Virus record (IMG/VR): IMGVR_UViG_3300043409_001534
Location: 1 to 37,265 of that record
Strand: one strand, 5' to 3'
DNA: 37,265 bases
Source: a virus
Shown: positions 33,899 through 36,464 of the stretch, one piece after another
Position numbering within the stretch: the first letter of the stretch is position 1
Layout: each line of letters opens with the position of its first letter
Notes under the pieces: model-generated
What the model was told of the DNA's origin: nothing
The model's input: the letters and a program-made list of their open reading frames with translations, nothing else
The model's database searches: none
Program-made: the position numbers and the translations under genes

Positions 33899-34197
33899 AG
33901 ATTGTTCCATATAGTGCCAGTGAGCCTTTGGAAGATATAAATACGCTACATGTATTAATTAAGGCTGTACCATTTGAGCATGGATACGCTCCAGCAATGG
34001 TTATTGTTTCTCCAGATGATAATTACTCTCTAAACCTTGATGAACTTCATTGCTTAATGGATGGTATTGAAATAGCAGAGAGTAAAATTAGTGAAATTAT
34101 TGATTACATCATAAATGCTAAAACATTTAATTTTCAGAGAAATCTTGAAAAAATGGATGATGAGGAATATGATGACGAAGATGAGGATGATGAATAG
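33895..34197 (+). CDS. Acidic protein of unknown function (100 aa)
   Basis: Starts MKIVPYSASEPLEDINTLHV by ATGA overlap. It contains a compact alpha/beta part (NYSLNLDELHCLMDGIEIAE, KISEIIDYIINA) and ends in an almost purely Asp/Glu tail (EEYDDEDEDDE). Acidic tails often mimic DNA or keep a partner soluble. No family recognised. Confidence 0.65.
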   Translation: MKIVPYSASEPLEDINTLHVLIKAVPFEHGYAPAMVIVSPDDNYSLNLDELHCLMDGIEIAESKISEIIDYIINAKTFNFQRNLEKMDDEEYDDEDEDDE

Positions 34198-34481
34198 TGA
34201 TATTGGCAAGAGTTATACCAGATTTTCCTTATCCAGAAAGAGAATGTCCATATTGTTATCAAAAATTAACTGTTGTTAATGCTATTCACTATCAAGACAA
34301 ATATCATTATAAAGCATTGTATTTAGATCCTAATCCTAATTGCGTTATTTATGATGAAGGTGCAAGAACAGCATATGCAAGAATGTATTATTCATCGGAA
34401 GAAGCTTTTGAATACTATAGAGATGTGAAAATACCAGTGCAGCGTTGGACACAAGAAAACTTGTATACAATTTATCAATAA
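34197..34481 (+). CDS. Protein of unknown function with a CPYC motif (94 aa)
   Basis: GTG start at 34197 overlapping the previous stop (TAGTG). It starts ILARVIPDFPYPERECPYCYQKL; the C-x-x-C could be half of a zinc ribbon, but no second C-x-x-C is present. It is Tyr-rich (HYQDKYHYKALYLDP, ARMYYSSEEAFEYYRD). No family recognised. Confidence 0.6.
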   Translation: MILARVIPDFPYPERECPYCYQKLTVVNAIHYQDKYHYKALYLDPNPNCVIYDEGARTAYARMYYSSEEAFEYYRDVKIPVQRWTQENLYTIYQ

Positions 34482-35078: not shown

Positions 35079-35443
35079 TTATTCAACTTCCATATGATAA
35101 TGCTGAAGTTAGCAAGAAGGGCCATGACTCAATGAAGTCATGGCATGAAAACATGGCTAAGTCCCATGAAACTGCAGCTGTATGGCATCAGATGCAGTCT
35201 GAAGGCTTGTCAAAGGCAATGAATGAAGTTCCACTTGACCCGGAACAAAAGCCTGCTCCAAAAGCTGGTGCTCAAGGTGCTTCAACTGATTCACCTGATG
35301 CAACACCTACGCCATCCACGGAAGTCCCAATGGACCCCATGAAGAAGGCGGATCTTATTAAGATTCTTGAAGATCATATTGCAGAATTTGGACCATTGGG
35401 CATCGCACCTAAAGAAATTGTAAACATTCTTATTGGTGAATAA
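35075..35443 (+). CDS. Protein of unknown function (122 aa)
   Basis: AAGGAG 6 nt before ATG 35075, overlapping the previous stop (ATGA). The N-terminal half is helical, with His and Met (SMKSWHENMAKSHETAAVWH). A Pro/Ala/Thr linker (PKAGAQGASTDSPDATP) leads to a helical C-terminus (KADLIKILEDHIAEFGPLGI). Probably a DNA- or protein-associated small phage protein. No family recognised. Confidence 0.65.
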   Translation: MIIQLPYDNAEVSKKGHDSMKSWHENMAKSHETAAVWHQMQSEGLSKAMNEVPLDPEQKPAPKAGAQGASTDSPDATPTPSTEVPMDPMKKADLIKILEDHIAEFGPLGIAPKEIVNILIGE

Positions 35444-35649
35444 TGGATATAGGCTACGCTTCAATACTTGTAGCTGTTGTCACAACAATGGGTACTGTGA
35501 TTGTAACAATCATTCAGAAATCTAGAAAAGAGAACAAAACTGACCATAACAGGGTTGTTGATACCCTAGTGTCTTTAAAAGAAGATGTTAAAGATATTGA
35601 CAAAAAACTTGATGGCCATATTGAATGGCATTTAAATATTAAAAAATAG
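35443..35649 (+). CDS. Membrane protein with a coiled coil, DUF2746-like (68 aa)
   Basis: Starts MDIGYASILVAVVTTMGTVIV (one membrane segment), then a basic stretch (QKSRKENKTDHN) and an amphipathic helix with VSLKEDVKDIDKKLDGHIEWH. This layout, including the H-x-x-W-H end, resembles actinophage proteins of the DUF2746 type that are often called holin-like. It lies far from the endolysin, so a lysis role is uncertain. TAATG overlap with the preceding gene. Confidence 0.65.
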   Translation: MDIGYASILVAVVTTMGTVIVTIIQKSRKENKTDHNRVVDTLVSLKEDVKDIDKKLDGHIEWHLNIKK

Positions 35650-35650
35650 T

Positions 35651-35658
35651 GGTATAAT
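35651..35658 (+). promoter_or_regulatory. Extended -10 promoter GTGG-TATAAT
   Basis: TGG-TATAAT (TATAAT at 35653-35658) is a perfect -10 with the extended TGN, right after the stop of the previous gene. A TTTAAA 16 nt upstream may act as -35. Transcription should start near 35664-35666, just before the structured leader. Confidence 0.65.
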
Positions 35659-35743
35659 GGTCGCATGGGGCGATCCTTGGCTGTAGGTATTAGGAAACTT
35701 TATCTGTGGTGCAGGGGTCGCCTCACTGTCTTTGGAGGGCACG
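35659..35743 (+). ncRNA. Structured, G+C-rich leader (possible regulatory RNA)
   Basis: About 56% G+C by hand count, against a clearly AT-rich window. GGCGATCC (35669-35676) can pair with GGGTCGCC (35715-35722) in an 8-bp stem with one G-U, enclosing an inner GGTA/TATC hairpin. GGTCGC (35659-35664) is a near-copy of the third arm and could compete for the middle one if transcribed. An SD (GGAGGG, 35734-35739) follows for the next gene. No known riboswitch class was recognised. A 38-codon ORF from ATG 35665 also crosses it but uses codons unlike the neighbours. Confidence 0.45.
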
Positions 35744-36097
35744 ATGGAAAAAATTATACCGCAAATTCCCCCGCTTGTTGAAATCTTTTGGGAAGATCAC
35801 TATAGTCTAGGTGAAGAATGGTTTGAACCCGATGCTAAGCATGATATATGCATTCTTTCAGCAGTGGGGTATCTAGTTTCTCAAGATGATAAGTATTACT
35901 ATGTTGCTTGCACATATGAAATGGATTCAGGACATTATCAGTCTGGAACAGCCGTTTTGAAAAATTGCGTGGTAGACTTCCACATATACAGCAAGCCTGA
36001 TCAACCGTTTAAAAAACAACCAGAAAAGAGCAAAAATGCTAAGTCAATTGGAAGTAGAAAAACTAATAGCCAGAGTCCCAAGATCTTCCGCACCTGA
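35744..36097 (+). CDS. Protein of unknown function (117 aa) behind a structured leader
   Basis: I chose ATG 35744 with GGAGGG 4 nt upstream over a TTG four codons earlier. A beta-rich domain (VEIFWEDHYSLGEEWF, DICILSAVGYLVSQDDKYYYVACTYE, GTAVLKNCVVDFHIY) is followed by a basic disordered tail (KKQPEKSKNAKSIGSRK). The tail overlaps the next gene by 62 nt. Resembles small phage proteins of unknown role seen elsewhere. Confidence 0.65.
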   Translation: MEKIIPQIPPLVEIFWEDHYSLGEEWFEPDAKHDICILSAVGYLVSQDDKYYYVACTYEMDSGHYQSGTAVLKNCVVDFHIYSKPDQPFKKQPEKSKNAKSIGSRKTNSQSPKIFRT

Positions 36098-36464
36098 AGA
36101 TCATCGTGCAGCAGCTTCTGTTGCAATTGGGGCTAGAGACGACAAGTCACTTGTTGAAATTATTAAGTACTATGGTATCAATAAAGAACTTGCAGTAAAG
36201 TGGTGGACTTTTTTTGGATTTGAAGGTGACATAAAATTAGAGAAGAAGAAGCGTGGTAACAAGTCTTCATCTCTACAGGATTTTATTAAAGCAAATATTG
36301 GTGAAACACTGTCATCGTCAGATATTATTGAAAAATGTGGAATCTCTACACCAACGTTTTATAATTATATGAATGCCAATAGAGGACAGTTTAGAAGAGT
36401 TAGTCGTGGGTCATATCTGATTTTAGATCCAGGTAAGGAAAGGAAAGAGGCGAAGAATGTATAA
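36036..36464 (+). CDS. Helix-turn-helix DNA-binding protein (142 aa)
   Basis: Starts MLSQLEVEKLIARVPRSSAPEDH. Two helical parts follow: KSLVEIIKYYGINKELAVKWW and, from about residue 90, GETLSSSDIIEKCGISTPTFYNYMN, which has the spacing of a helix-turn-helix. RRVSRGSYLILD looks like a wing. Probably a regulator or other DNA-binding factor. The start lies 62 nt inside the previous gene in another frame with only a weak SD. Confidence 0.65.
   Translation: MLSQLEVEKLIARVPRSSAPEDHRAAASVAIGARDDKSLVEIIKYYGINKELAVKWWTFFGFEGDIKLEKKKRGNKSSSLQDFIKANIGETLSSSDIIEKCGISTPTFYNYMNANRGQFRRVSRGSYLILDPGKERKEAKNV

Follow-up and report, generated by a model that had tools for sequence, protein, structure and literature searches.

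The question raised by this locus is whether the short stretch in front of a 117-aa phage gene encodes a functional RNA and, if so, what that RNA might do. The window, that is, the whole 37,265-base virus record analyzed here (IMG/VR IMGVR_UViG_3300043409_001534), carries on its + strand, in this order, the stop codon of a 68-aa gene, the sequence TGGTATAAT, a hairpin, a GGAGG motif, and the ATG of the 117-aa gene (Table 1). A preliminary description had proposed a structured leader behind an extended -10 box, and the predicted fold bears this out: the minimum free energy over 116 nt was -42.3 kcal/mol (z -3.9), and one of 200 shuffles folded equally well. The 8-bp stem that it had drawn (35669-35676 with 35715-35722) pairs exactly, but makes up only part of a 60-nt hairpin, in which the helix totals about 22-24 bp and unpaired sequence is almost nil. 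The Shine-Dalgarno sequence of the next gene is left free just outside the hairpin, as had also been stated. A third near-copy of one arm (35659-35664), suggested earlier as the partner in a pairing switch, does exist, but lies 5' of the predicted transcription start (about 35665), and its pairing is inconsistently kept, both of which speak against the switch. In the window, the stem is followed by CTGTCTTTGG, with no T-run.

Table 1. Features of the hairpin locus in the window.
Feature	Position	Strand	Basis or remark
Gene for 68-aa single-TM protein	35443..35649	+	usual 5' neighbour of the hairpin among relatives
-35-like TTTAAA, weak	35631..35636	+	spacer to -10 of 16 nt
Extended -10, TGGTATAAT	35650..35658	+	pattern match
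Predicted transcription start at stem base	35665..35666	+	inferred from -10 position
Hairpin RNA core, 60 nt	35666..35725	+	folding and covariation
Outer stem	35666-35679/35712-35725	+	folding, alignment
Asymmetric internal loop, G35680 / U35710-G35711	35680..35711	+	alignment
Middle stem	35681-35689/35701-35709	+	alignment
Conserved tip, UAUUAGGAAACUUUA: UU/U internal loop, 2 bp, GAAA	35688..35702	+	alignment
GNRA tetraloop GAAA	35694-35697	+	caps the 2-bp stem
Shine-Dalgarno GGAGG	35734..35738	+	outside the hairpin
117-aa gene directly 3' of the hairpin	35744..36097	+	predicted small beta-barrel, kinship uncertain
Gene for 142-aa protein, HTH-like C-terminal part	36036..36464	+	homologue is the first gene after hairpin and promoter in layout B

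Homologues of the hairpin were collected through its neighbours. Of the contigs returned for the 117-aa protein as query, three had the hairpin and many lacked it; a query with the conserved 94-aa neighbour (34197-34478) yielded 54 loci. The hairpin was sought in the fetched loci with a fuzzy pattern and then with a covariance model, R1, which placed it on the same strand, 1.5-2.5 kb 3' of the 94-aa gene, in 40 of the sources searched. Most of the loci without an R1 match stop short of the hairpin position; in L052, an inserted gene block shifts the hairpin beyond the fetched stretch, and it was recovered in a whole-contig search. Pattern scans added further contigs; those newly fetched with the hairpin-shaped pattern and scored with R1 all proved to be members. 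Homologues thus occur in about 40 IMG/VR contigs at the same junction, 3' of the 68-aa membrane-protein gene. One significant copy was present in each of the 15 whole contigs searched (these are genome fragments, so that the copy number is per contig), and a multi-copy element was rejected on this count. The hairpin was absent from 10 contigs in which the 117-aa protein is found in a different setting.

The hairpin was identical to that of the nearest relative at 68 of 68 positions, whereas DNA identity in the adjoining genes was 79-82%. RNAalifold, run unaided on 38 distinct sequences, recovered this long hairpin, with 23 pairs. The preliminary description had named covariation among homologues as the check on its proposal; two-sided compensatory change was observed in 22 of the 23 pairs, in a MAFFT alignment (A6) that misaligns a few outer-stem columns, an error expected to reduce the pair counts, not to inflate them. 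Standard pairs filled 96.2% of the cells for these 38 sequences, compared with 72.5% in shuffles, and the covariation score was 0.763, compared with 0.288 in shuffles, which take no account of phylogeny, and at most 0.199 with slid partners, a control that preserves relatedness. The hairpin is thus conserved beyond chance, from its identity in the nearest relative to the strong covariation in distant ones, and the covariation demonstrates that it is a real, conserved RNA structure. G.U pairs account for 19.5% of the pairs, and the element is therefore read as RNA from the + strand.

Family cores are 57-64 nt long, with an outer stem of about 13-15 bp, a middle stem of mostly 8-9 bp, and between them an asymmetric internal loop that has a conserved G on its 5' side and whose spacing from the tip is nearly constant. 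Among the 37 distinct cores, the tip UAUU-NN-GHAA-NN-U-UA is nearly fixed. The NN/NN pairs that close it are mostly UC/GA and covary (UC/GA, AC/GU, AG/CU), and the loops are GAAA in 23 cores, GUAA in 7, GCAA in 6, and the pentaloop GUUAA in one (L074). A DNA-level palindrome or recombination hairpin of the attC or REP kind was rejected, as the G.U pairs would turn into A.C mismatches in the opposite strand, and is also opposed by conservation at the tip rather than at the base. The 38-codon reading frame that starts at 35665, named earlier as the coding alternative, likewise failed as an explanation: neither frame nor start codon is conserved in place of the stem, the ATG being missing in L056 and most other relatives.

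The preliminary description had recognized no known class, and our searches agreed with it. Nothing in Rfam 15 reached the gathering thresholds, and relaxed searches gave only sub-threshold matches, mostly to eukaryotic miRNA-hairpin models. No hairpin was found by blastn in named phages, nor in the whole records of Streptomyces phages LukeCage and Moab, and no tRNA or tmRNA was found. A degenerate pattern gave no convincing member in cellular genomes, where five matches scored at chance level. A match in an unrelated genome, that of Citrobacter (L140, 23.4 bits), is an almost perfect palindrome picked out by the pattern itself, and was judged accidental. Set against Rfam 15, the named phages, and a partial search of the literature, the hairpin is best read as a new structured-RNA family.

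We compared the surroundings of the hairpin in 41 members, with promoters and terminators taken as sequence pattern matches. Seventeen of these, the window included, have layout A, in which the 3' gene is the 117-aa gene or a homologue, and four (L053, L058, L059, and L105) have layout C, in which it encodes a 201-aa proteasome-like protein. In all layout A and C relatives except L094, 5-8 nt separate the end of a -10 box from the stem, so that transcription is predicted to start at the stem base. No relative with layout B has a -10 box at this distance; there, a T-rich run resembling an intrinsic terminator follows the stem, and in most cases a new extended -10-like sequence appears 35-43 nt beyond the stem, ahead of the 142-aa HTH gene. 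A T-run is also present in layout A relatives L062, L065, L070, L071, and L074. The tree built from ThyX and the 94-, 100-, and 68-aa proteins splits into a clade of layout A members and a second clade that unites layouts B and C, within which C diverges early; because of this topology, which depends on a midpoint root and has low support at some nodes, a promoter before the hairpin would be the simpler ancestral state. The hairpin persists while the genes 3' of it change (117-aa, proteasome-like, or HTH), and is retained while genes are gained and lost on both of its flanks.

Several features of these neighbouring genes were recorded. The start of the 142-aa gene overlaps the end of the 117-aa gene in the window, and homologues of the former lie 3' of the hairpin in both clades. 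The domain PF00227 (Ntn-hydrolase, proteasome-subunit-like) was detected in the 201-aa gene directly 3' of the hairpin in L059. An SNase gene is among the insertions beside the hairpin (L051); in the closest relative, an SNase-family gene (PF00565; L048 2547-2945, - strand) separates the 68-aa gene from the promoter of the hairpin. In L052 (7416-10077, + strand) and L137 (586-4510, - strand), both on contig IMGVR_UViG_3300010354_011858, which carries phage ThyX and RNR genes, the insertion consists of an AMP-binding acyl-CoA-synthetase-like gene and two cytochrome P450 genes immediately 5' of the promoter before the hairpin. A gene for a short-chain dehydrogenase lies shortly 3' of the hairpin. 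Together, these genes look like a phage-borne metabolic cluster inserted at the hairpin junction. The 117-aa protein was predicted to form a five-stranded small barrel (mean pLDDT 71), and its Foldseek matches were weak, with Hfq/Sm-like proteins among them (E 0.1 and above). An RNA-binding role for this protein is possible on this model but no more than a lead, since its gene is absent beside the hairpin in layouts B and C. The major capsid protein of the window is about 50% identical to those of Streptomyces phages of the Stanwilliamsviridae, and an actinobacterial host is likely because of this kinship.

What stays constant across members is the hairpin itself and the agreement of its ends with predicted transcript ends (5' in layouts A and C, 3' in layout B), for which a transcript-end hairpin with a recognized tip would be the simplest explanation. 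We favor, at somewhat less than even chances, a cis-acting hairpin of this kind, whose tip and internal loop would be recognized by a protein or by RNA polymerase. With the layout of the window, the mRNA of the following gene or genes would begin with the hairpin, its Shine-Dalgarno sequence left free, and would be shielded or regulated by it. In layout B, found in the sister clade, the hairpin would instead close the upstream operon as a T-run terminator. We infer from sequence that the hairpin is transcribed, where transcription starts, that it terminates in layout B, and that a factor binds. Hairpins at the 5' end are known to guard mRNA against decay that depends on RNase E or RNase J (review PMC3997798). 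Like the stabilizing stem-loops of the ompA, papA, and aprE type, our hairpin is predicted to begin within a few nucleotides of the 5' end and to leave the Shine-Dalgarno sequence free, but the family-wide conservation of the tip sequence and, in layout B, a position at the 3' terminus of the preceding operon set it apart from them. Intrinsic terminators resemble the G+C-rich hairpin and following T-run at the operon end in layout B; however, the window and several relatives lack a T-run, and terminators need neither the two conserved internal loops nor the fixed tip found on this helix of about 22-24 bp. A recognizing factor is assumed because neither plain mRNA protection nor termination needs a fixed tip sequence, and a role as 5' leader is not the shared one, since the downstream transcript in layout B would lack the hairpin.

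The T-runs of the five layout A relatives would shorten the leader, and suit a free-standing small RNA better. Such an RNA would be made from its own promoter in layouts A and C, or be released from the tail of the upstream mRNA in layout B, and would act in trans, for instance by serving as decoy for a host protein; it is possible but clearly less probable than a transcript-end hairpin acting in cis. The predicted 5' end at the stem base and the T-run in these relatives would define a discrete 60-65-nt RNA, the hairpin is independent of the variable 3' gene, and there is a single copy per contig. However, the window and several relatives run directly into the Shine-Dalgarno sequence and start codon, and the hairpin offers hardly any unpaired sequence for antisense pairing. 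A narrower proposal appears unlikely: a free-standing hairpin RNA, about 60 nt long, whose target in trans would be a host protein such as RNA polymerase, a defence factor, or an RNase, and which would be kept as one copy at a fixed junction while its transcription switches between its own promoter and upstream read-through.

An RNA-based antitermination element, in which the nascent hairpin would modify RNA polymerase shortly after initiation, either alone as in HK022 put or with a protein as in lambda nut, we regard as rather improbable. HK022 put acts through the beta' zinc-binding domain and suppresses termination, and lambda boxB carries a GNRA-like tip. Our hairpin lies directly behind a phage promoter in layouts A and C, as putL does behind PL, is of similar size (about 60-70 nt) with bulged helices, and shares with boxB a GNRA-like tip on a phage leader hairpin; in L074, this tip is even a pentaloop. 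Membership in the put class was nevertheless rejected, as put RNAs of about 70 nt comprise two stem-loops (PMC9378689) and all 37 distinct cores form one. The phages that carry our hairpin are moreover non-lambdoid, and in layout B it lies 3' of a gene, with a T-run and without a nearby upstream promoter. Compared with nut/boxB, the stem is much longer and occurs once per contig. No boxA-like match, with one mismatch allowed, was found within 60 nt of the hairpin in any relative, a search that might miss actinobacterial variants.

RNase III sites separate transcripts in the early region of T7, and the position of our hairpin between operons, together with its long helix and the nearly constant spacing between its asymmetric internal loop and its tip, would suit a processing site dividing two operon transcripts in the same way. 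This explanation is quite improbable given one copy per contig and a window promoter that already separates the transcripts; to our knowledge, a fixed GHAA tip is not a requirement of bacterial RNase III. A riboswitch or ligand-binding leader controlling the 117-aa gene, raised in the preliminary description and consistent with the 5' leader position in the window and the conserved internal loop and tip, is very improbable, because the 3' gene is not constant: the element is a single hairpin with no conserved alternative fold, unrelated genes follow it, layouts B and C have no adjoining 117-aa gene, many relatives place the promoter after the hairpin, and the 10 contigs noted above have the protein without it.

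Our data add a well-supported RNA family, with covariation in 22 of 23 pairs and about 40 contigs, to little-studied uncultured aquatic phages, whose inferred hosts are probably actinobacteria. The covariance model allows further members to be found. That a transcript-end hairpin has a conserved tip suggests an RNA-binding partner, and the two natural layouts, with the promoter 5' or 3' of the hairpin, provide a ready comparison for learning its function.
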